The notes beneath the pieces were generated by a model, which saw only the letters and a list, made by a program, of their open reading frames with translations, was not told the origin of the DNA and searched no databases. Below are positions 9,796 through 48,736 of a stretch of DNA of 64,000 bases, in pieces. This DNA comes from Straminergon stramineum (taxonomy: Eukaryota; Streptophyta; Bryopsida; Hypnales; Calliergonaceae): the NCBI GenBank assembly GCA_963920665.1, contig OY987268.1:10232501-10296500 (forward strand). Reading direction: 5' to 3'. The translations under genes were made by a program, and so were the position numbers. How positions within the stretch are numbered: position 1 is the stretch's first letter; each line of letters begins with the position of its first letter.

Positions 9796-10582
9796 GAGTT
9801 ATGGTAGAAGACATGATGGACACATAGAATATAACATCATAATTTTATCAATGTTTCTTAAAATTCCTCGGGATGTCTTTACTAAGTACTTTAGACTAAG
9901 AAGTTATAAATTTTCAAAGTATTCTTTTTAGGTGTACCAAAAATTGAAACTAGGCTTTCATTTTAAAATTGTATAAATGTTGTGTCATCTGTATCTAGGT
10001 TTTAGGTTTACTTTTTAGTCCAAATGTTGGTGTCGCACTTTGGACAATGATGATTATGGGTGTATGTAAGGTAACTACTCTCACTTGTAACCCATTCTAA
10101 AATCAATGCGTCTGTAGATTCTTGACTAAAACTTACTATCTTTATTCATGAAAGCTTGAGGTTGCTTTTGGATACCCTTATTTTCGACACTTTGAGAATT
10201 CATAATTTATTCATATACTGTCTAGAAAAAGAGAATACAAAATACTCTTTTTACCTTTAATAAGATCCAACCCATATTTTCTAGCAATTCAATAATAGGA
10301 ACATTACTCAATTGCTTTATTCAAATGCAATTGGGTGTAATTGTTTAGTTACCTTACCTTATATGATTAGATGCTAGTTTTTTCAAGGCCAAGTATAACC
10401 CTTAAAGGACACAAGGTAATAGACTCAACTTCAAATATAAATGCTTATTTTTAGGAAACTTTCAAAAGTTTCAAGTGTAATAGAAACTAGACTTTAGATC
10501 TTCATTTTGTTAGTATTGCTTGAGAGTATATGAAATATTTTTGAATGTTAAAATCAAGTACTTAGAAAAAGCTCAAAGTCCT
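9796..10582. other. AT-rich intergenic stretch, lone TIR-like motif
   Basis: Nothing coding is visible. At 10396-10412 the motif TAACCCTTAAAGGACAC resembles the left end of the TTAA-flanked elements in this window, but the preceding bases are TATAA and no partner end was found. Confidence 0.3.
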
Positions 10583-11510
10583 TTAACTCTAAAATTCCTT
10601 GACTATATTTTCATCAAAAATGCTCCAAAATTGTTATTTCTAGAACAAGTACCAAATTTTAGAAAAAAACCCATCTCAAACACATGTAACTATAGGATCT
10701 TGTAGTATGATGGTTTAGAAAGATGTGGAATAAATTTCAGAAATTTCCACTACATGGATTGCAAGATATTAGTGTTTGAATTGACAAAAATCCTTTTTTT
10801 TGCCTTGTGAAAAAGTATGGCAATTGCACTTCACAAGTTTACATTTATATGAAAAATGTCCAAAATGGTGGTGCTTCTTTGGATTCATTCTCAAAGGCAA
10901 GTTGGCTACATGTTTGAAAATGTTCAGAGCATTTGGAATTGTATAACATATAGGAAAAAAAATAGTAAGTAGAAAGAAGTAGAAATTGATTCAAAATACT
11001 AAATTATTCATATATTAGTTATGAAATTGAAAAATGCCAATCCAATGTTGTTATTTTGTAATAAATAATCTACATCCTATGCTTTCATTTTTTTCTAAAT
11101 TATTCAAAATTGAGTTAAATAAAGAACTTCAAAGTTTATTTTAGAATAGAGAATCCATAATTTCTTGCAAACGAAAACTCCTCATAACTTTCATCTCATT
11201 AATCAAAATGGAATGATTCAAAGCTTTCTATGTATATACAAATCTAAAAAACCAATTTCAAATTTTAGTTTTTGAAGAAAGTGATTTCTTTTTATTTGCT
11301 CAAATTACCCAGTTTAAAAAAACAACTACATATTATACAATAACTTTTTAACCATGTAGTAAAAAATTATGAAATTTTTTGGGCTTAAAAGAAAAACTTG
11401 GTCCCCATGTTGTGTGAAAATCTCAAAGAAAAAAAATTAAAATTCTAGTAGTGAGATGCCCAAAATTTCTATTTTGCCAAAAAACTGGAGTTCGGTCTTC
11501 TAGGGGTTAA
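10583..11510 (-). mobile_element. piggyBac-like non-autonomous element, family A, copy 2 (inverted)
   Basis: TTAA occurs at 10583-10586 and 11507-11510, and the body (10587-11506, 920 bp) is the reverse complement of the family A element at 1925-2845. The conserved block about a protein-free stretch GTCCAAAATGGTGGTGCTTC makes the match clear. The left terminus (CTCTAAAATTCC) has decayed more than the right (CTTCTAGGGG). The frame at 10520-10705 overlaps the boundary and is not a gene. Confidence 0.75.
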
Positions 11511-11586
11511 ATATGATGCATAGGTATACCATTTTTACATATACTACCCATTATAAAATAAGAACAAAAAATAAAATGACTTGAAC

Positions 11587-12163
11587 TTAACCCCTAAATG
11601 TGTCGACATCCATTTCCTAGACGATGAACAGATTGAAACTCCAGTTTCATCCTCCTAACTACTTGAATGAAAATTATTTTAATTTGTGAAGATATGTTAT
11701 CAAGTTTTTGTTCTATCTAAGGTTTGGATTTGGTGTTACTAGAGTTCATATTTTTCTAAAATTACAAATGTGCAAATATGTCAAGTGGTCAAACTGCATT
11801 GACTTTAATTCAAAATTGGATTAGCCAAAATGAGGTCATAGATAGGAAGAACGCAAAAATTTCAAAAAATCACTATGTGAAGAGAACCTCATTTCAAATC
11901 CATTCCAAGAAATTTTACTCAAAAAATGATAATATTTTACTTGCAATCGAATTTTGAAGGAATTTTGGAATTTCTCTTTCAAATTTCTAAAAAAAAGATT
12001 GATGATAGCATTGGTGAATCCAACCGTATCGATGGAATCTACAAATCAGAATCTACAACTTTTATTTGTATTTCAATTCCAAAACATGCTTCCAAATAGC
12101 ACTTTATAATGATTTTTCTCAAATTGTCAATTTTGAAGATGAATCTGGATGTTTAGGGGTTAA
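11587..12163. mobile_element. piggyBac-like MITE, family C
   Basis: TTAA at 11587-11590 is followed by CCCCTAAATGTGTCGACATCC. The other end GGATGTTTAGGGG is followed by TTAA at 12160-12163. The element proper is 569 bp. Its outer bases CCCCTAAA are shared with family A but the interior differs. It starts only 80 bp after the right end of the inverted family A copy. No coding sequence. Confidence 0.7.
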
Positions 12164-17814: not shown

Positions 17815-18247
17815 CAATTCTAGAGAAGTTCATTGAGATTCTTGAACATGGGGATTTAAAGCCCGGTCGTAGGGCTATTACTTTACAAGAGTTCTATTGT
17901 ACAATGCCACTTTAGCTTGGCTCAACCTCAATAAGTGAGACTTGAATTATTGTTGGTCTTAAATTCATGAATAGGTATAAGATGGGTAGATCCAAAACTA
18001 ATTCTAGAGAAGTTCATTGAGATTCTTGAACATGGGGACATAAAGCCCGGTCATGGGGCTGTTATTTTCTATTGTATCATGCCACTTTAGTTTGGCTCAA
18101 CTTCAATAAGTGAGACCTGAATTACTATTGGTCTTTAAACTTGGTCTTTAAACTCTTAAATAGGTATAAGCCAAAATCACACCTCAATAAGTGAGACTTC
18201 AATTATTATTGGTCTTTAAACTCTTGAATAGGTATAAGCCAAAATGC
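17815..18247 (+). repeat. tandem repeats at the left flank of the large element
   Basis: A unit of about 184 bp containing CTAGAGAAGTTCATTGAGAT is present twice, at about 17818 and 18002. Each ends with a sub-repeat reading CAATAAGTGAGACTTGAATT, then GGTCTTTAAACTC, then GAATAGGTATAAGCC. The sub-repeat occurs again alone at about 18183-18245. The same sub-repeat in the same direction appears on the far side at 33817-33990, which is why it is treated as flanking or subterminal sequence of a large mobile element. Confidence 0.65.
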
Positions 18248-18784
18248 CGAATTAGACATTCTTGCATTTGGCCAAGTGCATTGACCATATGTACTATTAT
18301 TCACTCAAACATTGTTTTCACAAAAGTTGGACCCTCCCCCCCTTGCTATTTCAAAAACAATTCCCTCTCATTTATTGTGTTTTACTTCAATTGTGCATGC
18401 AATTTTCAGAGAGGGATGTACTTTTCAATACTTCTAAATACAACAATTAGGAATGTGCGCTTTATTAATCTCCATTACCCTTACTATTTATTTATTTTAG
18501 TCACCAGATGCATTATATATTACAATTCTCTTGATATCATATTCTTTTCGTACCAATATCACTTGAAAAGTAGAAAATCACTATAATCATTGAAAAATTT
18601 ATTTAGAAAATTGAAATGAATTCGAAGAAATGTCCACTACCTTCTCATTTTTGATATACAATCCACACAACACAAGAGAAACCCACTCTAAAATCTCCAA
18701 ACATTTTGCTTAGAAAATAAAAACTTCTATACTTCCACACATGGTTTATTACCGTCACATGTACTACTATTAAATATTCAAGAA

Positions 18785-21700
18785 CTACTGTGTTGCATCT
18801 GGTGTCTCCAACACTCGTGAAGATGATTGTGTCAAGTCTTCTACTTCCCTTCCACCAACTGTCTCAATTTCTTCAACTATACTTGGTCTACCTTTAGGAC
18901 TGAGTGGGGGTGGAGAGGCATACTCTAATGCCTTGTCCACCATAACACTCGTAGTGGATGTTGACCCCCCCTCCAAAAAAGACGATGATTGAATAGGTTC
19001 TTCCAAAATAGAAAAATCCCGATGAAAAATGTAATGCCCTTCATTTCTTGTCTGAACAAATCATACATTTTCCTTATTGTAGAAATACCCATCCTCCTTC
19101 AAAGTCAAGCTCATAGAGTCCAGAGATGTGAACACTGACAAGGCGGACATGGATTCTATTTCTATTGGTGTACCTTCAAGCTCTCCCACATGAACTTCAA
19201 CATCTGTTGTTGTTGCCGGTGTACCTTCAAGCTCTCCCACATGAACTTCAATATCTCTTGTTGTTGCCGATGTACCTTCAAGCTCTCCCACATGAACTTC
19301 AACATTTGTTGTTGTTGCCGGTGTACCTTCAAGCTCTCCCACATGAACTTCGACATTTGTTGTTGTTGCCAGTATACCTTCAAGCTCTCCCACATGAACT
19401 TCAACATTTGTTGGTGCTACATTCTCTACATTATTCTTTTGTACTGTTGGAACATAATTAGGATCTTCTTCTATTTCTTGCAAGTCCTCCTAGTCTCCAT
19501 AGGCATCACTTTCAATATGAGTGTCAACAAATCCCAAACATAGGCCATCGCCACGTAAATCATCAGAGTTTGTTTCCTTAGAGTCCCTTTCATCTCCGCT
19601 TGATGATGAAGCTCCAGAATCAATTGCGGTCTCTTTCCCCTTCTACTTCTCCCTTTCAACCCCTTCAACTATGTCTTCTGTATCCGATGAGTCACTTGAT
19701 GATCATAATACCCTCTCAAGCTTATTACGTGGTATACTTGGTCCTGCTTCAAAAGGATCGTAACTAGGCGATTTCTCTCCTATACTCAACACTTGCGAGG
19801 ATCTTCGTTTAGCTAATGTGTTGACACTATTTACCATCACCATTTTATCTCTATACATCAATTGCAATGTATTGTATACAAATTGTGTGTGTATTGTGCC
19901 TCCTTCCATGATGATAATTTCATTGCCCACAAAGCCACTCTCTAAAATCCCTAGGATAGCCATTGTAATGCCTAATGTCACTAACCCCCAATTCTTCAAT
20001 AAATACATCTGCACCATCTTCTTTAACTCCATTAGTGTCCTCTCTAGCTTGTCTTCGGCTCGTGGCATCACTTCTCCACTCCAGGTGTCTTGAAACACCA
20101 CATCTAACTCCTCTATGTTGTGAGGAAGGTTCTCCATAGGTCCACTTTCCTGCGGATATTGCATAATGATGGTGATGTCCTCCACTGCTTATACTGCACA
20201 TTGGAGTTGCTCTCCACGACGTAGATCATGCACATATGATAAAACTGTTTGTCTTTTAAATATCCACAAACCCTTGAAGGAATGACTATTCGCTAACAAG
20301 GATATCCTCGACTGCATTGCTTCATCAAAGTATACACTTGGTGGAAAAAGAAATATGGCAGTCCATCATAGAATTGAAGACATCCACTTCTAAATTTGAT
20401 CTACCACCTTGTTGTAATCTTCACTTGACCATTCGTCGTCTAAGCTTTCTGAACCTCCATGTTTACAATTGAAAATCTATAAACACGGTTTTTCCCAATT
20501 CAATGTAATCATCCTCAAAGAACTTTGCTCTACACCTCACGTGTACTGATTTTTCTCTCTCTTGGTGTTGGACTATCGACAGTGCAACTTGCTAGTCCTA
20601 TCGAGCATTAGAAACATCATCAACATCCCAATTATAGCCTATATTACCTCTGCAACTAGCTCTGACATCTATAAAGTCTTGCCTAACAAATGCTAGAATC
20701 AAATGATCAATACTACTCAATGATTGAACCATCTTCACAGTTGGAGAACACTACAAAGACTTTGAATCAGTATCCAACGTCTTCCCCATCAATGTGAATT
20801 GCCTTCCTCCATCAGATCTATATTTGCTTGCATCTATTGCCAAAAAATCATTCATAGATAATGGATTCTCATTCCTTGCTTTTACCATTAAAAATCGAAT
20901 TTAATTCCTCACTGCATCCTTTCGCTGCATACGATCCACCGCATAAGCTACAATACCTTTAGGAAGATTTAGAGACGTTGCATTATTGAAATAGTATTGT
21001 TGTGAAGGTCGGCTCCCATCAACCACATCCTTTGTTGCCATTCGCTTGACCACACATAAATATGTCTCTTTTGAGACTCTACTCAAAGGTCTCAACCATG
21101 TTTTCTCCATCCTCTTCCTCTTAGAATTCCCATCCATTGTTACATCCAAATTCTACTCCTTTGCTGTTTTCTTCCACTTCTCCTCTGACTTCTTTCTGAA
21201 GAACAACTTCCCTTCTTCATAATCATTACACACTTACAATATCGCCTGAAATGCCTCTTCATCTTCATTCCAGGCATGCCTTGTGTAGTCGATTATTTTT
21301 TTGGACAATTCCCCCAATGACATACATTGCGGTAAGTCTTGACTCTAGTGCAATGCACTCGCTGCCATTGTCAATGCCTTCTCTCATTATGCATCATCAA
21401 CTCGTGCAGCAACACTAGAATTTCCACAAGCTTTCCAAATATCATGCAGCTTGATTAGATTTTCGTAATACGTGGTGTAAAATATCCGATCAAACTCCCT
21501 TGCATTTATTCTAACCAACGCTTCTATGTAGAATTGTAGATTGTTGTAGACCACGAACTTTGCTTTCCGTCTTGCAAATCGCATCAGGTACTCTTCCTCA
21601 AAGATATTACCCTCTTGATAATCGCGTTGGCCTCGTTTACAAGCACTTACAATATATTGCCCATCTACTAGCTCCCAAACAATATTATTCTCCAACCACT

Positions 21701-23265
21701 AAGTCCATACCACACTCCTCGGGGTAGATGGATCTATTGGACAATGCGTCAATAATGCTACATCAAATTCCTGTGCAGCACCTTCATGACTAAAAAGAAC
21801 CTCCACTACCTCTTTCTTTCCTTCATCATTGGTATGCTCATAATGATATGCAATTGGACAAAGTGTAATTGCACTAATTCCTTCAGCTTCAAATCCCTTC
21901 AAATGTTGGTACATCTTAGACACTCGCCATTCCATTAGTGTCCTATGGTTTGTCTCCGCATTCAATACATTACGGATACTATCAATGTCTGCATTGAAAA
22001 ATGTAACCTGCCCTTAGATATATCCCACCTTGTACTTCATCTCTATAGGGAAAACCACTAGTAGGTTTGCTACACTTCGTAACGGTAAGCTAATATGTGT
22101 TTGTTTAGGCTTGTCCTCCTTAGAATCATCATCATCCCCATCATTGCCTTGAGGAGGAGGACCTCGTGTTGCAGCTCTTTGACAATGTCGTTGAACTGTA
22201 CTACGAGTGCACAAGCTCTGTTCTTCTTCAGCCCCTATTTCCATTGTATGAATCCTTCCTTGTTCTTTTGAAATGTTCTCTAATTTAGAACAAGGTTGGG
22301 CTACGGTGCGACCCTATACTCTACAAGCACCTCTTCCCCTACCAACTCCTGTCCTATTTGTTTGTTTTATAAGGCCAACTCTTCGAATTCTTGACCTTGA
22401 CCCAACTTCTGTAATTGTTCTTGGAACTCCAATGTCACTTTCAATTAAAATGCTTGGGGCACTCTATTGTGGTTCTATAGATTCTTCTCCAAGCTCCTCT
22501 TCCACTAATGGTGAAATAATTGGTGCATTGCCTTCTAATAATGCCTCCTCTTGCCTTACTGTTTCATTCTCCCTCACAGGCTCAAATACAACCTCTATTG
22601 TTGTTGATACAAGACATTGACGATATTTTCTTTGTCTTTCAGAAGCCCCCCTTCCTCTGAATGACGTGCACTTTGTTCTTCAATAGCACGCTTCCTGTTT
22701 CGTTCAGCCACTGGAATCCAATTCACTTTCAAAAGAGCTACATAAAGGCGATATAAATCATCCATATCCTCAAGTTCCCTAGGGGAGGAATCTCTTCAAC
22801 AGCAGTAGGCTTAGTCATTCGAAGCTCTTCATAACTTCGAATCTCCAAATACTGTCAATGTGATTCAAACAATTGCTCAGGGGTTGAGTTCTTGCATTTT
22901 TGAACAAATTCTTCTCTTGGAATCTTCAACTGAACATCCAAACTGTTCTAGAATTTCACCAACGTCTTCAATCCATGAATAGGAGATAGAACAAGAACAA
23001 GCTCTGGTGGAATTGGTGCCATCGTGAGTTGCTTCCTCAATTTGTACTTTTCAAACACTGAATCACTATTCGTTACTCCCACAGTGAGTCCATTATCAAC
23101 AGTGCCTGCAAGGCTCTCAATGACTCCATACGAGGTTCCCAAAGCACTCCAATATCGCCCTTTTTCAATTGGAAAGTTTGTGATCCTTAAAATGGGCTTC
23201 TCTGCACCATTCGCTACTATCCACCATCCATGCTCCAACCACTTTGAATGTACCTTTGGTGCCAT
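18785..23265 (-). pseudogene. decayed long gene for an acidic repeat-containing protein, unknown function
   Basis: Reading from 23265 leftward, coding-like sequence can be followed for about 4.5 kb through at least two frame changes (near 22.8 and 20.5 kb) and more than ten in-frame stops. The first block (23265-22948) begins MAPKVHSKWLEHGWWIVANG and looks like a small folded domain. The middle (22244-20900) has basic and aromatic residues and a nuclear-signal-like KRKRMEK near 21.1 kb. The last third (20185-18785) is acidic and Ser/Thr-rich and carries five 17-residue repeats. Stops such as TAG and TGA in otherwise smooth frame suggest C-to-T decay of CAG and CGA codons, common in methylated plant transposons. 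I do not recognise the family. Its place opposite a transposase-like gene suggests it was the second protein of a large transposon. Introns could explain the frame changes but not the stop density. Confidence 0.6.
19154..19408 (-). repeat. 51-bp tandem repeat, 5 copies, encoding 17-residue units
   Basis: Five consecutive units encode variants of NVEVHVGELEGTPATTT on the minus strand, with few differences between units. The last unit changes into TPIEIE. Because the period is 51 bp, all six frames stay open or nearly so, which creates spurious frames on the plus strand. The units are acidic with a hydrophobic VEVHVGEL core and look like spacer or protein-binding repeats inside the decayed gene. 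Confidence 0.85.
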
Positions 23266-23299
23266 GATGTTCTAGAAATACACAAAAAAGTTCAATTCG

Positions 23300-26200
23300 T
23301 AAATTACTAGGAGAAAAAAGCATCTTCTATAAGACATGGTGACTACTTTAAAACTATGAAGGTAATTCACAATGGACTATGATAGAATCTCAATTTCTAA
23401 CATTGAAAACCAAATGTACAATTCCTTGAATCTTTTTTTCTTCAAGGCTAAGGAGCAAAGTTTTTTGGAACAATATGGACTTAACATTGGCATGTGTTAA
23501 AAGACAGTTATATGACAAAGACCTTTGATGAAGTTCTTTGTTTAAAAAAAAGAGTACTATGTGAACCTTCGAAGTAAAGTTAGAATTTTATAAAGTTCAA
23601 ATGATTTGGTCATACTACTAAAGTAATGAAATTGAAAAAACTATTAGACATTTGAATATTCAACATAATTGGCATTGCATTTTTTTTAAAAATAAAACAA
23701 TTAGAACCGGCTTAGGCATTCCTAAACAGTGGGTACCATTTTCCATAGCAAAGAATGTTTTCCACAACTTTCCAATATGTACTAAATCAAACTAGAAAAA
23801 AAAAATAAAGCATAAAATCATATGCATTTCTAAATGTGTAAGAAACAAGGTTGTTCTGTCGAACACATTTTGGGGTTGGGTGTCGAGTTGTTCGTCTGAT
23901 GTCGCGTGTCGTACAAGACGAGTGTCGTGTATACATGACAATTTTGACGAATAAAGCCTTATCCTAACAACTGAGATAATTTGAAATCTCATTTTATTTA
24001 TGATCCATAATTAAGAATGGAATAAGTGATTATTAAATTGAGACACTTCAATAAAATGAAACTCAAATATGTCAAGATTGGAAATAGAAAGTGTTTTATT
24101 TGAAAGTCAACCTTAAAGTTGATTTTATTAGACGGACAAGGGGGTCTACTAGACGTGTTGGATGTCGTGTTCGTCGTGTTGTCGAGTTGTTTAGCCGAAC
24201 AACCATGGTAAGAAATGTTTCTTTTCTTGTACCACATCGTAGTACATTTGAATTTGTTGTTGATTCAAAATTGACTTAGACATTTACAAAAAAATCTATT
24301 AATAATCAAATCTATTTTTCAACTTCAAAAATATTGAAATGACGTTCTCTACGACCAACATTTTAGGTTCAATTCCATAGATGCGAAAAATAGAATTTAC
24401 ACGTCACTTGAAATAATCTCTCCTTTTTATTTTCCATTGTTTTCACTATAAACTTACGAAGTTATTGACACCCAATTTTGTACTACTTCATTGCAACATC
24501 ATATGCTTCTATAGGTTTTGAAGATTGACATTCACAAGTGTAACCCATAATATTTCACATGCAATTTTTTAATGTTACTTCCTATAAAAATAGTTTCTAT
24601 CATGTATGTTTTGAACAAAAACTTTGAGTAGTAAAATGCCGTCTTAAAAAAACGGCACTTCCCTAGACGACAATGATTTCAGTACCTTATGATCGAGTGT
24701 TGATTGTTGTAGAGGCAGTCCGTTGGCACACACCACAAGTAATCCTATTGGTACCTCTCTATAACTCTGTCCTTCACCCCGTTTACACCTTCTCTACAAA
24801 AAAAAATAGCCTCATTCATTATAAGCATCTGTAGCATTATTTGCTATGTAAGCAATGACTTACATATCGAAAGCAAATTGTATACAAAGTCACAAGTCTT
24901 TGCTACTACACAATTACCTTCATGAAATACTAGCATTTCTAATTTTGAAACCATCGAAGACAAATTCTCTAAATGAAATTGATAGCACACCTACTTCATA
25001 GAGGTGCAAACAAATTTAAAATATATAAACATCAAAGAAGTGAGGAAACAAAAAATTTCAAGTACTAAGTCACTAAAGGGACTAGTCTCACAAATCATCA
25101 TTGAACCTTAGGTGCCACGATGTTCTAAGCGTGCAAATTGACATCACATTTAATAATTAAAAGAACATTTACATATTTTAAACAAAACAACAACTACTAA
25201 GAAACTCTAAAGGTAATTTGTAGTTACTTGTGTGAGAATCTCAACTTCTAACATACAAAACCAGATGTCCAATTCATTTTGTTTTTCTATTGTTCAAGAC
25301 TTACAAGTGAAGTTTTTATGAATTGTAGGGACCTAACGTTCAAACTGCTACTCCAAACTTCTATAAAACAAAACATCCAAAAAGTACAATATTAACAAAT
25401 ATGAAATGCATTTCATCCTTTCAAGTGAATATATAATAACGTAAAATTTAAATGAGGTCATTTTCTTGAAGAAGGAAAAAAATGGAATAGAAAGTACTCT
25501 AGTTCGAACCCTACGAAGACATCCTCTTCTTTCCTACATGAACTAATTGCATGATTTGCATCTCCTAACTTTCATCATGAATGAGGATTGCATCAAAGTA
25601 CATGATAAACTTTCATTTGAAGAAATCAGTCCTTGTTGGTGCACCTTAACATCAAATATAAAAAATTAAATGAATTTGAAAAACTATAAAACTTACTTTT
25701 CATAACAAAATTTCCATTACATTGTAAGGTATTTAATGGACATTAGAATAGGAGAAAATTAAATTAAATAGAAAAAGAAGAAATTCAAATAAATTGAAAT
25801 TACAAAAGCTTTAAATAAATACCCAAGTAACTAAAACAATAATACAAGAAGAATAAATGGAATTATAATAGTTTAAAATTAAAATTAAATATAGTAATTG
25901 GGGAAAAAATACAATTCTAATATAATATAAAACATTGAAATTCGAGTAGAGAAAAGTATTGACATAAATTCAAAATACTTCACTTTTAAAGACTACTTTT
26001 TCAACTAGTCAGACATAAGTATTGAAGATATTATTTGTATATTTCCATTTTCATTGTTTTATGCTATAGTACCTTTCAATTTTGGCAAAGACATTCAACT
26101 CCTTTGCAAGAGTTAGTGGACTGAAGAGATCACCGTTCTTGATTGCACTATCGTTGGTATTGACAGGTGTACATCACAATTTGAAATGTCTAAATACTAC

Positions 26201-28030
26201 CACTGCGCATGTTTGACCTTTGCGTACCAATTAGGGTGGTCATAATATATAGGACTATCATCTAATAAAGTTCTGAAATTAAAGTTGTGGATCAAAGTTT
26301 GTAAGACAACGCTCTTATTTCTTAGATGTTTTCCATGGCATTCTTCGTCATTCCACTTACTTCAACTACATCTTACTGGACAGTCACTTTCAATTAAAAT
26401 AAGGATTGTGATGATGTTCATAAATACTACATCTACTCAAAGGTTAGTAAATAGTGTTGCATCACTAGAAGTCAATGTTATTTAAATTTTAAATTATATG
26501 TACACTTATGAGATTATCTATGGAATTCATAGCCACGTTTTCGTGCATTTATGAACTAGGTTTTTAGGAAGTTTAATAAAAGTTTGATTTCTCCAGCAGA
26601 CACGGCTACATAGTTTATTCATGAAGTGCCTGAGTGGCAAATCTGAGCTCTTGCCGCAACTTTGTGCATTGAAATGGAGGATAGGTAACGCTGTCGTACA
26701 CGGGAAGTTTGCATGAGTGTTTGCAATACTTCTACTACCTTTGCCATATACTCACCTAGACACACATGGTGGCGTTCATGGGTGGGAGCGTTCACTGTTC
26801 CCATTCGGAGCACAGAAGACCAGTCTGTACTGTCTGGAGTCAACATACATGATTGCAAAAGGAAATTGAAATCCTACAGGTGAAACTAGTAGCCTAAGTA
26901 CATCCCTGTTGTTATAGATTCTCAGTGTCATTGCTACTAATGTTCTTTTCTAGATGTTTATCTCAGAAGTTATGCTTCTTGTACAGTAATGTAGGAGGAA
27001 TTGCACAACATCAATGTTGATTCTTTAAAAACGGTCAGGAAGGGAAAGCTTAGGAAGGTAAGGCAACTATCATAATCTTTGAGTGCAAATTACAACAACT
27101 GATTCCTTCGTCAATAGCATGGAAGCAAAATACAAGTTCTTACATATAGACATACTTTGCTAAAGTCCGCACCTTCTAATTGAAAATCAATTGTCTACTA
27201 CCCAATTACATTGTAATTTCACAATTGCACTCACTACTCTCTTGCTGAAGTATCACATTACATGTAAACAGGAAGAAGTCTATAGCGAAAGGGAAATTCG
27301 ACCTTCACAGATGTGGTAATCCAAAATCAGATTGAACAAAGCAACACCGAACAGAGAGAAGAAGAAATTCGATGACCATACAAGGTGATGATCAAAAGAG
27401 GAGTGAATGCTTGAACCAAGTCTGCTGGAATCCTCCCTCTCCTAATAACGACAAGCATCCAGGAAAAAGAAATGCAATAGAAGACAGGTATGTGAAGATT
27501 AGTAGCAGAAAGAGATCTTATGATTAGCAACCGATAAAGAAGGTCTTCCAATTTCAATTTTCGCAACACTGAACTCAAACCAGCAAAGAGAGGTTCAAGA
27601 AGACAATTCAATCAACAGGTAAGCCTGCTAATTGCAATAGTTGTAGCTAAACGTCATTCCAAATTCGTCCTATTGTAATACTAATGCGAGAAGTGACGTC
27701 TGTAGGATACAAACAACAAGAAGAGATTAGAGGATGGAAGCAAAAGAGACCTCAACTAGCCCAAATGCGGTGGCAGATTGCGAGGAGCGCTCGACGCGTT
27801 AGGAGGAAGAGACAGAATTGCAAAAAGGTGGTGTGTGTGGCGCACCAGAAATTAGGGCTCCAAATCAAAGTCTAGGTAATGTAACATGTACCTCTTTCCC
27901 GATTTTCCCTGTATGAGTAAAGTTCCACGAAACTGCCATTGTTCAAAAAGGGCATAGAACCTATAGGGAAGCTCTCACAAACCTATGGGGAACCTGCAAG
28001 CACAATTCTACAATGCGGAACTGAAGTAGA
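23300..28030. other. AT-rich central region, no gene recognised
   Basis: Mostly AT-rich and stop-filled. Two GC-richer patches at 23860-23940 and 24130-24210 share TGTCGAGTTGTT and several TCGTGT strings, pointing to an old duplication or element ends. A small hairpin GCCGTCTTAAAAAAACGGC lies near 24640. Between 26.6 and 27.9 kb the composition is closer to normal, but the short frames there (26619-26858 minus, 27327-27611 minus, 27684-27875 plus) have no recognisable domains. Confidence 0.35.
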
Positions 28031-28040
28031 ATGAAAGCTT

Positions 28041-28084
28041 AATGAATAGTGACCCTCCACGCATGCGGAGGGTCATTGTTCATT
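28041..28084. repeat. imperfect palindrome, 18-bp arms
   Basis: AATGAATAGTGACCCTCC (28041-28058) is matched by GGAGGGTCATTGTTCATT (28067-28084) with an 8-base loop and two mismatches, both of the kind tolerated as G-U pairs in RNA. It is a relative of the perfect palindrome 90 bp downstream, sharing the GTGACCCTC core. Confidence 0.85.
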
Positions 28085-28132
28085 TCGAAATTGTAATTCA
28101 TCTCGAAATTAACGATTGAAGTCAATTTTTTT

Positions 28133-28192
28133 GGAGCTCTGATGAACAGTGACCCTCTGTGCGCGCGGAGGGTCACTGTTCATCAGAGCTCC
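28133..28192. repeat. perfect palindrome, 25-bp arms
   Basis: The left arm starts GGAGCTCTGATGAACAGTG and runs 28133-28157. It is the exact reverse complement of 28168-28192. The 10-base centre is TGTGCGCGCG. On RNA this would be an uninterrupted 25-bp stem, and on DNA it could be a cruciform or paired binding sites. It is one of two related palindromes in the non-coding centre of the large element, within a CT-rich leader-like sequence on the minus strand. Confidence 0.92.
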
Positions 28193-28299
28193 ACTGTCTA
28201 TCTTCCGCTATGAAATTGGAGATGGAGAGAGATTGAAAATTAGAAGATAGCATTGACGAAAGGAGAGAAGAAAGGATCGTTTAGGATTACCTGCGAGAG

Positions 28300-28800
28300 A
28301 GACAATGCTGCGACGGCGACCTAAAATCGGACCGTTGTTCGAGCTTTGAAAGTGCTACGATAGTGACCTGAAATCAAACCAAATATCGACCTTTGATAGC
28401 CTCTGCAGATTGAATGACAAATTCATTAGATGCCTAAGAAAATGGAAGTGCGGTGAGATGAGTGAATGCAACAATTTTGCAGCGATTGAGATTATAGAAA
28501 AAGAAGGCTTCCAGCCTCTGCAACAAAATTGATCATCTGCAACCGAAGCGATAATCTGCAACGAAAGAGATCAACGAAAGCGAAAGTGATGAAGACATTC
28601 ACGTACCTAGTTTACACTAATGGAGGGATTCTCTCTCACATAGTGACGCTTCAATCTATAGGTTGAACAAACCCCGACGTCAGTATTGTAGTAATCTGAA
28701 GAATAGCGTGCACTACGAGGTGGCAAGAGAGTGACATTAATCTGGTTTTCGAAAACTTAGGGTTTCGTCTTCCTGTCTCTTCCCTAGCATATTAGGCTGT
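28300..28800 (-). promoter_or_regulatory. leader/promoter-like region facing the minus-strand gene
   Basis: Read on the minus strand, this stretch is pyrimidine-rich with several TTGCAG acceptor-like strings and a CTCGCAG followed by GTAATC donor at about 28290, which resembles a plant 5' leader with an intron. The strand opposite reads CTTAGGGTTTCG near 28758, also leader-like. It could be the start region for transcription of the decayed minus-strand gene, but no transcript evidence exists in the sequence. Confidence 0.2.
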
Positions 28801-28910
28801 CCAAGTTAAGATGAGCTCATATCCAGTATTGAAGTTTCTGGATGATTGTCTCTAATCCATTTGTACTGAGGCCATCATCCAAGAGTTTGTTTTAAATTTG
28901 TTTTAAATTT

Positions 28911-28956
28911 GGTTTATTTGGTTTTATTTGGTTTTATTTGGTTATTTGGTTATTTG
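28911..28956 (+). repeat. TTTGGTTTTA-type microsatellite
   Basis: About five successive variants of GGTTTTATTT / GGTTATTT form a short simple repeat. Confidence 0.7.
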
Positions 28957-28959
28957 TGT

Positions 28960-30400
28960 CGCCATTGGGGTTTGAAACCTGGTCTCCACTACTAAAATGG
29001 TGAGTCTTAACATTCAATGAACCTACTTCCCTTCAATGTTTAATGCCACCTTTTTATTCCATTAATATCCTTCATATTCCTTGTTCAATGATGAGAGCAT
29101 GTGCTGCAATTATTTTTCCAAGGCCATTTTTGACTCCTTTCTCATGTTTTTTAAACCTTTTGCTTAAAAAAATTGTCACATAGGTGACTATTCATCGAAA
29201 ATTTCAGAAATTGGATGGAGAGAAAAGATAGAAGTTGAAAAATTGGAATAGGTTTGGACTTTGGGCTTGGACTTGGGACTTTGGCCTTTAGAGGCTTGAC
29301 ACTATGGCTAGTTGAAGGCTCCAATTCCTAGTTTTTTGGCCTATTTATTGCTCATTTCCTTGGACTCTCACCGAAGTTTGGCCACTCAATCACATGGCCT
29401 CTTGACTTGGACGGCCATAGTGTGAAGAGGCCCTTAATATGTTACCATTAGAGTTTCATATCAAGTGACAATTTCGAAAAAAAATTAAAATAAGTAAGGA
29501 AGTTAGAGAATAGTAGAATAATTTTTAGTACCAGAACTTAAAATTGTATTAATGGAAGAAGTACGTTGATTTCTTTTTGTACACTTTATTTGTTGCAAGT
29601 TGTATGCCTATTTGAAGAACTCATGAAACAAAATTCATGAAGTCATTATACTTTGAAAATAGAATTGGTGGAAACATGAAACTTTGATATATTTTAGATC
29701 TATGTAGAGTAAGTTTCAAATTTTGGTCTGTGGAAAGCAATGTCATCTACAAACATTGACCTTTAAACTTATAGGGTATTGTAATATTCAAAAATTTCAT
29801 AAGTTGGTGATTAGAAGGAATGCAATAGTTCCCATGTTTTTAGTTTGACTTCCAAATACTTGAAGAGAATGAGTGCACTGTCTTACAATGTCCGTAACCA
29901 TGTGGACATTAGATAGTGTGTGCAAGATACCATACATAGAGTAGTTACATTTGTAAAGAAAAGGAAGAAGAATGTGAAGATAGGAGGGAGTAATAAACTC
30001 TCGACAATGAAAATCGTAAATGCAACTTGCAAGGATTGATTAAGTTTCATTTGGTCCTAGGTTTGCACATAACATTTGACAAGATGTAAGAAAATCAAAA
30101 AATCATTATTAGTTTGTTTTTTAAGAACTTTATTTTGTTTCAATACTCTATGGTGTTCTCAAAGGTTTTTTCCAAAGCATGGGAGCTCAATTTTAACTTC
30201 TTTGTAATCATTTGGAAACAATTGAAGACACATAAACACAAAAAGAGGGCATTTGCACGGTGTATGACCATGTGAACAGTAGTTGTACGAAATTGACTGA
30301 AGTTAATTAGAATGGAAGCATTTGGGAGTCCTGTGGCCTTCAATGCCATCGGAAGTTTGGTGGTTGCAACAAAATGAAGGACTATAGGGGAATGACTAAC
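28960..30400. other. non-coding stretch before the transposase-like gene
   Basis: AT-rich with no usable frames. The minus-strand frame at 30140-30427 overlaps the start of the plus-strand coding tract and has no recognisable features. Any promoter of the plus-strand gene should lie here, but I see no motif that I could assign. Confidence 0.3.
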
Positions 30401-30404
30401 GCAC

Positions 30405-30872
30405 ATGTTACAAGCAAGACTTTTCAAAGAAGAAGATCACGTCGCTCCAAATGTAGTCTCACACGCTACGAATGGGATGGTGCAACTTCTTGGGAAGGAT
30501 GGGAATCTCGTAGGAGTTGGAGTGGTGGATACGGGCTTTTCATGTGGTGATGAACTTCATCATTTGAAGTTACGTCCATTGGAAATTGCAGTTCGTGTTA
30601 CACATGCCCTGAATGAAAGAGAATGGGTTGGTGAAGTAGTGGGGAAACTTCTCATCGATTGTCTAGATAAGGTCATACGGTGGGGGCGATCTTCAATCCA
30701 TTGGGCACATCCTTCGAAAGTCAAAACAACGAGTACTACTGGAGTTAAAGGACAAAATTTATCCTTTCCTCCTATTTTAGCACCAGAATTTGATTTTCAT
30801 GACATAGAGGATAGCCCTAGCACCTTGAATGTGATGTTGAAAGTAGTACAATGGAACAAAGTTCTCCTGTGA
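30405..30872 (+). CDS. small ORF ahead of the transposase-like gene, unknown; faint DUF8039-like pattern
   Basis: A 155-residue frame starts at ATG 30405 and overlaps the next frame by 22 bases. The central part contains the string VGVGVVDTG followed by LRPLEIAVRVTHAL and a later CLDKVIRW. That order resembles, loosely and from memory only, the domain DUF8039 found in proteins carried by plant CACTA elements. It may be the N-terminal part of the transposase-like gene after a frameshift, or a separate accessory protein of the same element. No stop interrupts it, unlike its neighbours. Confidence 0.35.
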   Translation: MLQARLFKEEDHVAPNVVSHATNGMVQLLGKDGNLVGVGVVDTGFSCGDELHHLKLRPLEIAVRVTHALNEREWVGEVVGKLLIDCLDKVIRWGRSSIHWAHPSKVKTTSTTGVKGQNLSFPPILAPEFDFHDIEDSPSTLNVMLKVVQWNKVLL

Positions 30873-33448
30873 CACAAGAATCTGAAGCTAGTGCTCATGA
30901 TGTAGTAGAAGTACAAAGAATACCTATATATGCACGAAAGAGGAGGTATTCAATGACAAATCGGAGGGCAAGGGTGAGAAGTCCAAGAGAGCGAGGGGAG
31001 TCAGCTAATGAGAAAGTTACCCTTGAAAGTATGTTATGTGCGAAGGAGAGAGGAGCATGTAAACAAAATTGTTTACATGATGTCGATGCAAAATACATTT
31101 TGGATCAACGTTACATGGCATGGGGTCAGAAGTACGAAGCTAGGGCTACATGGATAATGCAAATGCTCAATGCTTTCTACACTCACACTGAGGGGCAAAC
31201 AAGAGACAAATATGTGACAAAATTAGATGATAGAGTCATTTGCAATGCTTGCTTCGTAGTGGCATTGGGTTATTCCCAAAGGCATTTCAAGCAGTTGAAG
31301 ACATCACAGAACGTGTATGGAAGAGTGTCAGCTATTCATGGAAACACATGTCAAGGGAGGGAAAGTGCAAAAATGTCAGCAGCTAGACGAAGCCTAGACG
31401 TTTTCATGAATGAAGTTGGATGCCAGCAACCCCATCAATCAGTATGAAGGAAGAAGGACAATGCAGTGTTACCATTGATTTTGTTGCCAATGAATACAAG
31501 CGAGCTAGATGTGTTTTGGTATGTGAACGAAGAAGTGAAGAAATTAGTGGATGGGTCTGAATTGTCGATGAGCTCATTTCGTCGTCTTTGGCAAAAGGAG
31601 TTTCCACATATGCAAATTCCACCATTCTTAAGATTCTCAATGTGTTATCATTGTTGGGAGTATAAGTGTGGAATGGAATCTACGACAAACGCAACAGCAA
31701 AGGTGAAGATAAAACAATTGTACATTATGCACATTCGAATTCAAATGGAAGAAAGGCGAGATTATTGGTTGTTCAAGAGATCTGCAATGATCACTCCGGA
31801 TATATTTATGTGTTTGATTGTGGATGGTATAGATCAGAATACAACCATGATAGCAAAGATGAGGTAGTCCATGAAGAACATCGAATCTTGATTCATGAAG
31901 ATGCATCTTTGTGGTGTCTTGGTACATGGAATTGGCATGTATGCAAACATGTGGATAGATGCTCACCACAAGCATGATAGCAATCAAGTCATCACATCAA
32001 TGATGAACGTAATATGTAATGTGAAGTGCAAAAAAGGTTCATTGCCACCAACGTTGAGGATTCAAGTGGATAACACTACGAGTAAGAACAAAAACATCTA
32101 CATGTTCAGCATGTGTGCTGCACTTGTTGGGCTTGGTTTTTTCAAGGAAGTTCATCTTTGTTTTCTGATTGTGGGACACACCCATGAGGACATTGATCAA
32201 AGATTTAGTGTGATTTCAAACGTCCTCAAGAGGAGAGATATAGATACATTGGAGGAAATGTTACAGTTGGTTGAAAAAGGGACATCGTATACTAAGGCTT
32301 TTATGAGTGCTCGCAAGCTTGAACATATTCGTGATTGGAAGGCATTTATCACACCTCATTTGCTACGAGGTGGGGATCAATTGACAAGCATAACATTTCC
32401 ACACCATACGAGGTTCTACGTGGAAAATGGGTTGGTCTGCGTGCAACACAAACATTTCAGTTCTGATGAGTGGGGTCCATCAAATGGACATTTATGTTTG
32501 AACTCACTACCAAGTGTAACAAACAAACCAAACCTCGTGGAGGTGTTTGCGGCTGATCAAAGAGAATTGAAAGCACTGGACGAGTTCATTGCATATAAAC
32601 AGAAGTTAATATTGAGAGGTGTAGACCAGATGAAGAACATGGAAGTTGTAGACAAAATGAACGAATTCAAGGATTATCTCAGAGATTTTCCACAATGGAA
32701 TAGAGAAGGGGCCCGTGATTTACCGTTTTGGCCGAGTGATATCTTCAACGAGAGTGAGCATGGCAATGTTGTTCCAAATGTGGAAGAGGAAGGTATAAAT
32801 TCTAGTATATCTACAAATGCAGATGGAAACACAACAAGGACTGCAATTTTAGACTTGATAATGGCAACAATGCCTAATCCAGAGAGGAGGGGGTACTTAG
32901 GACCACACAGGGATAGACCCCCACAAGAAGTATCTCGAAGAGTGACTAGAGGGAGGCATAGAGTTGGAAGTCATCATGGAAGAGCAGAAACTGTACAAGA
33001 TGCAAATGAAGATCCTTTTCCTCCCTTCAATCCAGAGAATGACATTGTCGTAGGCCAATTTGTGGCACTTACTGTGGAGTTGAGGGAAGTAAGAGGAGGA
33101 ATACTTTTTTATATAGGAAAGGTATTGGAATTTGTTCAAGGGAGGTGGGCCTCAGAGATGAAAGTGCTATGGTATTGGCCTTCTATGAGATCTGGAGCAG
33201 AAGTAGAAGCAGGTAGTAATAGATTGAGGTACACAAATTGCATAGAATCCACATGGGAACCCTCTGGAGAGAGGTTCGCTTGGATTGAGAAGGAAGCTGC
33301 TATATATTCATGGATGGATGTTCCTCATCGAAGTAGAACTGGTCATGTAGTAGTGTTTAACATCAAAGTGCATGGTGTACAAACAAAAGAAAAATTGATC
33401 ATTCCAACTAAGGCTAAACCGCATCTTGTGGAATACATGGCAATGTAG
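30851..33448 (+). pseudogene. DUF7869-like putative transposase, three in-frame stops
   Basis: One continuous frame of about 865 codons is broken by TGA 31445, TAG 31865 and TGA 31889. The N-terminal half has a cysteine cluster CAKERGACKQNC (about 31050) and VICNACFVVALGYSQRHFKQL-like sequence (about 31240), then CYHCWEYKC (about 31640). Three acidic motifs follow: DGIDQNTT (Asp at 31823), QVDNTTSKNKN (Asp at 32069) and GHTHEDIDQRF (Glu 32186, Asp 32195). They have the spacing expected of an RNase-H-type DDE/DDD core. From memory this set matches DUF7869 proteins of animals, oomycetes and some plants, usually thought to be transposases. The C-terminal part (about 33030-33330) has VGQFVALTVE and MKVLWYWP, resembling a chromatin-reader or SH3-like fold. 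All three stops could be CGA or CAG changed by C-to-T, and catalytic motifs are intact. Confidence 0.7.
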
Positions 33449-33786
33449 ATGGAGGATCTAGATGACGAACGTCTACAAAATGATTTGAATATGTACTAGA
33501 GAAGTATCATGTCATATAGTGTGTTGTAGACCTTCTAGTAGTAGGCGTGTAGAAGTACTTCAATGTGAAGTGCACAATAATTTGAAGCATGAGTAGTGTA
33601 GATTGAAAAGTGTATGAGTTTTTTATGAAGTAATAGAATTTTCAGAGCAATATGACGATTATTCTCTGAACAACTTTTCCTACAAACATGAAATGATTTT
33701 TTGGAAAATCCTCCCCCCCCTAATATTTGAAATTGTCTATTTTATATGGCATATGAGCCAAGTGCAACATCGCACCTTCTAGGTGC

Positions 33787-33995
33787 AAAAATGCCTAATC
33801 CTATTATAATTGCACCTCAATAAGTAAGACTTTAATTACTCTTGGTCTTTAAACTTATGAATAGGTATAAGCCAAAATCACACCTTGCCTAATTTAAACT
33901 CATGAATAGGTGTAAGCCAAAATTGCACCTCAATAAGTAAGACTTTAATTACTCTTGGTCTTTAAACTCATGAATAGGCATAAGCCAAAATTGCA
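33787..33995 (+). repeat. direct repeats at the right flank of the large element
   Basis: Two copies of a roughly 60-bp unit containing CACCTCAATAAGTAAGACTT and GGTCTTTAAAC(T) then GAATAGG(T/C)ATAAGCC lie at about 33816-33880 and 33925-33990. Each is followed by a CTTGCCTAA string (33888, 34000), and a related TGCCTAATCC precedes the first. The unit is the same, in the same direction, as at 17.93-18.25 kb. Confidence 0.7.
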
Positions 33996-33999
33996 ACTT

Positions 34000-36070
34000 G
34001 CCTAAAAATACCATCACAACTCTGTGTAAATCTCCAAAGTCAATACGCATTGTATGTATGTTGAAGAAATGATTTTAGAACATTTACCAAAAAAAACTTT
34101 GACCCTTCATAAATTTTGCTTAGGATAGCCACATGTCGTGTTCTTTTGTACATTAGAATCTCCTTTCATTTTCCAACAAGAAAATATGAAAATTTAAAAA
34201 TTTAAAAATTTGACCAATCTAATGATAGCAACTAGGCAAAATAGCAATAACTAGGCACAATAGGGAAAAGTGGCAATCTTCGGGATTTTAGAGGTATCCA
34301 CCTTATTGATTGCCAAAATAATAACTAAGATATATGGAGCATTATAGTTGATTGCATTCCTTTTTAGATATGCAAACCTCCTCTTTTGAAATTCAAAAAA
34401 CTAGAGTATTGCTTGAAAAAAGGATTGGCATAACTCTCCTACACTTTTAACCCCTAAATGTCCAAGGCCTTTTTTAGGCTTCTTGGCATTTGTTTTAAAT
34501 TGAACAAAGAGCCAACATTTTGATAAGTTTTATCAATTCTTTTGGAATTGTAACCATACAAATTTAAACTATACATGTTAGAGCTTATATGAGAAAAAGA
34601 AAATAGAACAATATCTCTTCTAGATTGAAAGATTATAATGTTTAATCATAAAGGTGTTAGAATTGTGGAAGTAACTTAAAGTCTTTTTATCCTCTTTTCA
34701 CATGTCAAACCTAAGAAATTGGTGACCAAAAAAATATGAGCTTATTAAAGAGCATAACATGGGTAATCCCAATCAATTTGTGGCTACTCAATATCTACAA
34801 TACAATTTGTTTAAGTAAACTTTTGATGTAATTTTTTCTTTCAGTTCTAGTGTGATTGAGGCTCATTTAAAAGAGCCCTAAATTCTAAAAAATCATGATT
34901 TGCAACCAACTTGGGATGGTTCAGTATCAACTCTGAAAATGTACCAAAATAATGAACCTAGAGTGATGAAGATTATATATTCCTGCAGTTTTATATCTAC
35001 TTTATGGGAATTGTTAAAATTCACATTACACACTGAAGGGAACAATCACTGCAATATAGAATACCAAATGTTCAGGGCAAACGACCTATCCTACATGAAA
35101 TAGTCATAAGGTAAGGACACCAATAACCATCATTGTACCCATAGTTTGAGAGTAGAATTCCCTCAAAGTGTTTCCAAAAGAACCTTGAAACCATCTTCAA
35201 AGTACCTTGAAACCATCTCCATATTCAATTGTGGTTGGTGAACCCTGATTTTTTCAGATTTTAGTACTAGAATCAAGGTAGAATTAGTAGAGTGTGCTTA
35301 TGGGTGCCCTAGGCAATTCTACTTTGAAAATTCGTAGAAATTAGATGCCTTATCCCCAAATTCTTTTTTTATTTTCAAAAATTCACGATTTTCAATTGCT
35401 AATATTGAAAAAATATTTTTTCTAGAAAAATTTGACCCCAACCATGCTGAATTGCTTAAATTGAAGGTTACGGATGTTCCTACCTTGCAAATTCATTACT
35501 TTTTAAATGAAAAACTTTAAACTTCAAAAATAGTTTTACTATGAAAAGATGATTCATCTCGACAATAGTTTCTAGAAAAAGAGAATTTCTTGAAGACAAG
35601 ACCACAGGTTTGACCCCAGATAAGCAAATGCCATCACAACTGTAATACAAAAACACCATTACTAGTAGTGACGAAAACGGACCACATCAAATTATACTAA
35701 TTATACCAAAAAAAAATACTTAAGGCAAAAGAAACAGAGAAACTAAATAGGTTCATAACAAACATCAGATTATTTCGCATAACCAAGCAAAACTAACGCA
35801 TTCATTCATAAGTAGGATCAGAAACAGTTGCATGGCTAAAGATATTTTACAAAATTCTCCATGAGGCAATGTTCTGAAGGGATGCATTTTTGAGGAGAAA
35901 TATGATCACCTGCCAGACCTTCACCCACACTCGTTACGATTCAACTTCTAATAAAAATTAGAGCCTCCAAAGAAGTTCAATTACAGCCTAGACTACCGAC
36001 TCAAGATGCATCATGCATACCATCATGAAGGTAAATCCGAGTGCCGAACAAAACTGATAAATTTTAACAA
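34000..36070. other. AT-rich intergenic stretch with one lone TIR-like end; DRP3 3' flank
   Basis: TTAA at 34447-34450 followed by CCCCTAAATGTCCAAGG looks like a left end of the TTAA-flanked families, but no matching right end is visible downstream. The frame at 34900-35103 shows no features. The last few hundred bases should contain the DRP3 3' untranslated region on the minus strand. Confidence 0.35.
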
Positions 36071-47804: not shown

Positions 47805-48736
47805 CTAACCCCTACAGGACCATCATAAGTTTTTTGGTTACATAGCAATTTTGGGCAAGTACGTGTAACTAGAGATTTCCATATTTTTGGCCCAACTTTT
47901 AATAGAAGTTGGGGACGAGGAATATCTTTCATATGCCCTAAATTTCATGACATTTGGAAATATGAATCAAAAGTTATGGCTTGATATGTTACTTTTTTTC
48001 ATAACTCGGCAGTTGAGGCAAATCTAAAAAATCAGTTTTCTCATAAACAAAAATTTTAAATTGATTTTCTAAAATTATATCTATGTGGAAAGCTTTGTTC
48101 CATTCCATTTTGACCTATGAGTCAAAAGTTATGAGGATATTTTGATTGCAAGCAATTATGGATTCTCCACTCTAAAATAAACTTTAAAGTCCTTTATCTT
48201 ACTCAATTTTCAATATTTTGGAAAATAAAATAAAATCATAGGATGTAGATTGTTCATTATAACATTGCAACCATTGGGATTGGCATTTTTCAATTCCACA
48301 ATTAAATTCTTAACAATTTAGTATTTTGAATCATTCTCTACTACTATCTACTTACTATTTTTTTCTTATATGTTGTATAGTGCCAAACGATCTAAAAATT
48401 TTCAAACATGTGGCCAACTTGTCTAGGAAAAAGAATCCAAAGAAGCACCACCATTTTGGACATTATTTCATAGAAAAGTGAGCTTGTGAAGTGCAGCTGT
48501 CCTATTTTTCGCAGGGCCAAAAAAATGATTTTAGTGAATTTGAATGCTAATATCGTGCAATCCATGCAATAAAAATTTATGAAATTTTTACTACATGTTC
48601 TCAAGTCAAAATACTACAAGATCCTATGATTACATGTGTCAAAAAAGTTTTTTTCAAAAATTTGGTACTTGTACTAAAAATGGCAGCTTTGAAGCATTTT
48701 TGGTAAAAACATAGTCATGGAACTTTTAAGGGTTAA
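47805..48736 (+). mobile_element. piggyBac-like non-autonomous element, family A, copy 3
   Basis: The left end CCCCTACAGGACCATC follows CTAA (a TTAA with one change) at 47805-47808. The right end TTTTAAGGG precedes TTAA at 48733-48736. The body (47809-48732, 924 bp) is collinear with copy 1, for example GTGTAACTAGAGATTTC and TATTTTTGGCCCAA close to the left end. No coding sequence; the minus-strand frame at 48392-48604 lies inside it. Confidence 0.75.

Follow-up and report, generated by a model that had tools for sequence, protein, structure and literature searches.

A decayed DUF7869 transposase gene in the moss Straminergon stramineum and the probable giant Sola-1-type DNA transposon that carries it

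The window analysed here is a stretch of 64,000 nucleotides from the moss Straminergon stramineum (assembly GCA_963920665.1, contig OY987268.1, positions 10,232,501 to 10,296,500), in which an initial annotation, made from the sequence alone, had placed a DUF7869-like putative transposase at 30851-33448. The identification is supported by a strong Pfam match and an integrase-like predicted fold, and the data support the reading of the feature as the decayed DUF7869 transposase gene of a DNA transposon. We consider it highly probable that this transposon is a giant cut-and-paste element of the Sola-1 type, a name that we use as a strong working label. The element is recognised by its inverted ends, by duplication of 4 bp of the target, by its presence at dozens of separate sites, by the DUF7869 protein itself and by a second, outward-facing gene. 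The extent originally proposed misses the element, whose parts in the window are as follows.

18243..33807, plus strand: whole transposon copy, 15,565 bp, oriented by the transposase gene; the complete relatives e16 and e11 match it with their ends on both sides, and joining its flanks gives back the tandem-repeat target with no gap
18243..18291, plus strand: left end, beginning AATGCCGAATTAGACATTCTTGCATTTGGCCAAGTGCA, with the inverted repeat proper in about the first 27 bp; 6 mismatches in 49 positions against the left ends of the relatives
33781..33807, minus strand: right inverted repeat of about 27 bp with its last 8 bp (33800-33807) degraded, placed by the 3' ends of 21 copies and by comparison of both ends
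18153..18242, plus strand: left flank, a unit of the target tandem repeat
33808..34005, plus strand: right flank, the same tandem repeat as the left flank, with units showing the empty site
30312..33499, plus strand: transposase pseudogene, 1066 codons, by tblastn of the open copy L019
TGA 30375, TGA 30393, frameshift near 30839, TGA 31445, TAG 31865, TGA 31889 and TAG 33446, plus strand: lesions of the transposase pseudogene, by the same tblastn

The plus-strand frame at 30851-33448 is present as first described, with TGA at 31445, TAG at 31865, TGA at 31889 and the motifs DGIDQ, QVDN and GHTHEDID. It covers 865 of the 1066 codons of the gene, with about 184 missing at the start and 17 at the end, and its characterization as nearly complete and broken by only three stops was mistaken: comparison with L019 reveals one frameshift and six in-frame stops. 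Two of these stops, both TGA, fall in the first 176 codons, which are read in a different frame (30312-30839), and the TAG at 33446-33448, taken earlier for the end of the gene, is premature by 17 codons. L019, with 1066 codons, is the one stop-free copy among the 21 compared over the whole protein (20 fetched from the genome and that of the window). The frame cannot plausibly be a chance product, because the protein database contains 59 relatives and the same genome at least 43 matches to its residues 1-197. The top database relative is 73% identical over the whole searched region, some others reach up to 77% over part of it, and the sole relative with a named organism is P0033 from Branchiostoma.

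The complete relatives aligned to the window measure 16,769 and 17,914 bp and show that the window contains the entire element, between 18243 and about 33807. The stretch 18243..18291 is the only match in the window to the left ends of the relatives, even with up to 18 mismatches allowed. An earlier suggestion of possible element ends nearby was thus borne out, the right end lying 0.36 kb past the frame and the left end 12.6 kb before it. We take the window insertion to be real and its duplication to have been lost, because the two flanks are parts of a single tandem repeat and, once brought together, give a gapless alignment to a repeat unit across the insertion point (93.8% over 113 bp).

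The ends were defined on copies across the genome (326 Mb in 59 contigs). The genome searches for the transposase, for gene B and with the DUF7869 profile score the best candidates only, so that their match counts are lower bounds. The matches to residues 1-197 merge to 39 loci. An alignment of the 21 copies displays a sharp common right boundary about 0.3 kb beyond the gene, past which the copies differ. The reverse complement of this boundary, searched as AACACNGAATTAGNCATT, occurs at 23 forward and 22 reverse sites, with ten convergent pairs among them, and its reversed control at no site in the genome. About 27 bp are shared between the left and right ends, giving the element inverted ends at both termini, which start with AACAC. 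A left terminus at the AACCTCGAATT breakpoint of L018 was considered and dropped; L016 reads through this point in frame, and it was the pattern search that located the true ends. Both ends were read at 14 of the 39 transposase loci: ten by name, two by end pairs, the element of a second lineage, and the window copy.

Thirteen elements were read at both ends for their flanks, twelve with a transposase locus and one 10.7-kb copy with no match to residues 1-197. The outer 4 bp are identical on both sides in 12 of the 13 (ctaa, ttgg, atat, caaa, aata, taag, taac, aata, ttta, taat, cttc and atta), and three of the four positions agree in L015. The shorter transposase-bearing end pairs span 16.8-19.1 kb. 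The element has inserted dozens of times in the genome. EnSpm/CACTA elements, which are likewise large terminal-inverted-repeat transposons with CAC in their ends, were considered for that reason; they carry CACTA termini and make 3-bp duplications, neither of which was found here. Instead the ends read AACAC, and the assignment was rejected on the 4-bp duplications in 12 of 13 elements and on the profile searches.

The second lineage shares 63% identity with residues 21-196 and is represented by an element of 20.7 kb as read, flanked by ctaa on both sides. Its ends were picked by a shared block, TAATTTTTGCACTYGGCC, with 18 of 20 positions agreeing between left and right, and by the fitting duplication; they resemble the ends of the window family. 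Beyond them, the flanks (L052 at 1082-1290 against the reverse complement of L053 at 1058-1260) show inverted similarity of 17-18 positions in 20 in several blocks, and the element may lie inside another inverted structure. A separate 32.9-kb end pair at L010 (C3:17473043-17505988) includes a relative of the second gene with 36% identity and an open frame of 847 codons; this is perhaps a nested second lineage.

The enzymatic part of the argument concerns the following features of the transposase frame.

31886..32467, plus strand: DUF7869 domain (PF25273), residues 346-539 of the frame
31823..31825, plus strand: first conserved acidic residue, the D of VDGIDQ; invariant column D505 of alignment A1, at the end of model strand 1
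32069..32071, plus strand: second conserved acidic residue, the D of QVDN; column D587, conserved in at least 90%, after model strand 4
32174..32197, plus strand: GHTHEDID motif, which includes the third acidic residue; D627 and D629 are both invariant, and E626 is conserved in at least 90%

The profile search proposed with the annotation returned PF25273 at 166 bits, where 26 bits is the cut-off (E 9.7e-49; residues 346-539). The motifs of the family (DG.DQ, Q.DN and GHTHEDID) are kept, and the element described here supplies the family with ends and target duplications. The Pfam entry gives no function for DUF7869, and the name was not found in the literature searched. Pfam held no other family matching the transposase at E up to 1, and a sequence search of PDB with the transposase profile gave no match. 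Conservation of the acidic residues was scored over 38 diverged proteins (alignment A1), and the presumed third catalytic residue is one of E626, D627 and D629. All 21 copies retain the first D. Twenty have the second, 17 have the E of HEDID, and each of the two D in that motif is present in 20. The suggestion that the acidic residues meet in a DDE/DDD site agrees with the predicted fold as far as the order of its elements goes, which is RNase H-like. In the model the first motif is on strand 1, the second follows strand 4, and the third opens the helix that comes after strand 5; this predicted topology matches the cores of retroviral integrase and Mos1. Of the two outcomes named beforehand as refuting, absence of a profile match and a fold that keeps the motifs apart, neither was seen, the fold being judged by its topology.

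The ends and insertion footprints suggest that the DUF7869 protein is the transposase of the element. It would bind the inverted ends, hold metal ions through three acidic residues (D, D and a D of HEDID), cut both ends and join them to target DNA with a 4-bp stagger. The protein could instead be a passenger or a domesticated host protein, with another enzyme moving the element; its activity is predicted from sequence, and the open copy L019 has a changed HEDID. We find this very improbable, given that the DUF7869 gene is one of only two long genes in two complete elements, the other being without a transposase match, that it adjoins the right end in the 21 copies compared, that its acidic residues are conserved in 38 diverged proteins, and that its copies decay independently, unlike a host gene.

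Searched genome-wide, the DUF7869 profile gives at least 152 matches from 862 candidates (150 scored). Among the matches listed, the first 31 score 148 bits or more and the later ones 126-146 bits, nearly all of the latter starting at profile position 30 or beyond; other, more numerous DUF7869 families seem to be present. The DUF7869 profile matched none of 14 control genomes. In viral contigs 21 stretches fitting the peptide pattern were found, none of which was confirmed as a relative.

Stop codons number 74 across the 21 copies, from 1 to 14 in each copy other than the open one, and 63 of them are TGA or TAG; four copies, including that of the window, are split between two frames. Several close groups (L009/L013/L014/L016/L018, L011/L015 and L020/L022) are well supported in the tree, with 97-98.5% identity between nearest members, and transposition therefore seems to have continued into the fairly recent past. 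With 89% identity to L024, the closest of the other 20, the window copy looks older. Substitutions counted on both strands against the column majority of the 21 copies show C-to-T changes at 12.9% of CG (191/1485), 12.5% of CHG (141/1129) and 3.5% of CHH sites (636/18420), with A:T to G:C transitions at 1.45%. This spectrum is the expected trace of plant-type CG/CHG methylation and agrees both with the excess of TGA and TAG and with the earlier remark that each stop in the frame is one C-to-T step away from CGA or CAG; the decay in CHG context is consistent with a plant host. The window copy inserted in a tandem repeat and was probably silenced by CG/CHG methylation, its genes being lost through stops, mostly of the C-to-T type, and frameshifts.

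The other long gene, here called gene B, lies at the left end and is followed in the window by two palindromes between the genes.

18785..23265, minus strand: gene B pseudogene, about 1490 codons, by tblastn of gene-B pieces of the relatives and by genome-wide linkage
28042..28083, unstranded: first central palindrome, TGAATAGTGACCCTC...GAGGGTCATTGTTCA, matching the palindromes of e16 and e11
28141..28184, unstranded: second central palindrome, TGAACAGTGACCCTC...GAGGGTCACTGTTCA, inverted repeat I1 and one of 42 genome sites

Gene B stands on the strand opposite to the transposase gene and is transcribed outward. Its tblastn matches in the window run from 23271 to 18788 in several frames with 0-8 stops per piece; in e16 four stops interrupt what is mostly a single frame, and in the second lineage the gene is open over 1550 codons. 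A gene-B match lies within 60 kb of 31 of the 39 transposase loci, with the outward layout in all 31. The protein database yields four relatives. One of them, P0062, and the DUF7869 relative P0004 each lie on a contig of 673,695 bp, which suggests that the two are linked in another genome; blastp of P0004 against gene B gave no relationship. The part of the window encoding the C-terminal region (19160-19420) holds a degenerate tandem repeat in an acidic tail, whose extent differs among e16, e11 and the window.

This organisation agrees, on the points compared, with published accounts of Sola elements. Ectocarpus carries Sola1-1_Ec32, a giant 21.5-kb Sola-1 transposon with an accessory gene opposite to the transposase, whose 1104-aa product is described as ParB-like with a DNA amino-methyltransferase, and pseudogenised transposases are said to be frequent in giant families (PMC12477816). 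For the superfamily as a whole, 4-bp duplications, a DDD transposase, variable inverted ends and some lengths over 15 kb are reported, with most elements put at 2-9 kb and with Sola present in the moss Physcomitrella (PMC10741241, PMC3627910). Judged against these accounts, the window element shares with Sola1-1_Ec32 its giant size and a long accessory gene on the strand opposite the transposase, and with Sola in general the 4-bp duplications, found also in the second lineage (ctaa). It differs from most Sola elements in size (15.6 kb for the window copy, 16.8-19.1 kb for the shorter end pairs and 20.7 kb for the second lineage). The accessory product described for the brown alga is shorter than the 1550-codon frame seen here, and methyltransferase motifs are not recognisable in gene B, which library profiles leave without a match.

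Several observations weigh against our interpretation. The Sola-1 label rests on element structure and printed descriptions. No target duplication is visible at the window copy, with its degraded right end, and the outermost bases of the second-lineage element agree with the search pattern at 12 of 18 positions each, no better than nearby chance sites. Foldseek with the transposase model found nothing at E 0.001 or better, the best match (0.017) being to Argonaute-type proteins. In the open copy L019 a K replaces the E of HEDID, L023 is without the second D, and L026 without both last D. At eight of the 39 transposase loci a search out to 60 kb gave no match to gene B, and ten of the gene-B loci lack a transposase match nearby. 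Gene B has no convincing match in Pfam, PHROG or NCBIfam, nor any profile match to nine bacterial and phage amino-methyltransferases, the latter a weak test with a shallow alignment (effective number of sequences 1.6), in which the transposase alignment used as control also gave none.

The element could instead be a DDE/D transposon of another superfamily with 4-bp duplications (Chapaev within EnSpm, Academ or an unnamed one), the layout of Sola1-1_Ec32 being convergent or derived from a gene shared between superfamilies. Chapaev makes 4-bp and Academ 3-4-bp duplications; the ends here start with AACAC, with CAC at positions 3-5, and the superfamily was assigned from element structure. ParB-methyltransferase proteins are also recorded in green and red algal transposons, in a passage that leaves the superfamily unstated (PMC12477816). 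We nevertheless judge this alternative improbable: the transposase has no second match in Pfam at E up to 1, and the length, duplication, presence of Sola in a moss and opposite-strand accessory gene agree with the printed Sola and Sola-1 descriptions, as far as these go.

Within the Sola-1 interpretation, the role of gene B allows different views. Its VDGQH..ACK motif resembles, we assume, that of ParB; where amino-methyltransferases have [DNS]PP[YF] it presumably has DCRR, and GIT in place of a glycine-rich motif. The gene-B model has a predicted local distance difference test score (pLDDT) of 45.8 overall, low also at VDGQH..ACK, and Foldseek found no match to it at E 0.001 or better (best 0.0057). 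Gene B alone found no PDB entry by sequence, and the three matches of its profile (E 0.19-7.9) were taken as chance. An active N4-cytosine or N6-adenine methyltransferase marking the element's own DNA, as suggested for Sola1-1_Ec32, is unlikely in the face of the altered motifs, the lack of a profile match to the nine amino-methyltransferases and the model results.

Near-perfect palindromes of the form TGAACAGTGACCCTC-N10-GAGGGTCACTGTTCA stand between both genes; e16 has three of them, one being imperfect, and the window and e11 have two each. The pattern GTGACCCTC-N10-GAGGGTCAC occurs at 42 genome sites and its control at none; for 36 of them a match to the transposase, to gene B or to an end is found no more than 25 kb away, and for the other six none is. 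At four places, with seven sites in all, an end is nearby and neither gene is matched, and the palindrome may therefore persist in deletion copies. Its simplest reading is that of a candidate binding site. Gene B would encode a DNA-binding accessory protein that descends from a ParB/amino-methyltransferase fusion and may act on these palindromes. We offer tentatively, as a rather unlikely possibility, the more specific proposal that catalysis was lost and that gene B became a sequence-specific partner of the transposase. Protein and central palindromes of the element would then form a system private to it, serving expression, the pairing of its distant ends or its protection from silencing.

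A large uncharacterised Pfam family, with at least 152 matches in this genome, is hereby tied to defined ends, a duplication length and a gene layout, which opens copies elsewhere to annotation and testing. The plan of an algal giant Sola-1 element, with its odd prokaryote-type accessory gene, is found in a genome that still holds open copies, and the element-specific palindrome is offered as a candidate binding site.

Two minor observations complete the description. A region of about 0.3 Mb at C7:21050298-21352967 contains three fragments of gene B, with a central palindrome roughly 3.5 kb from each of them, as well as one more palindrome cluster and no transposase match; it looks like a local duplication of a deletion copy. 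In the window outside the element, a repeat of about 0.85 kb occurs at 1921-2849, 10582-11344 and 47806-48725, and also inside e11 (10998-11865), with 73-81% identity.
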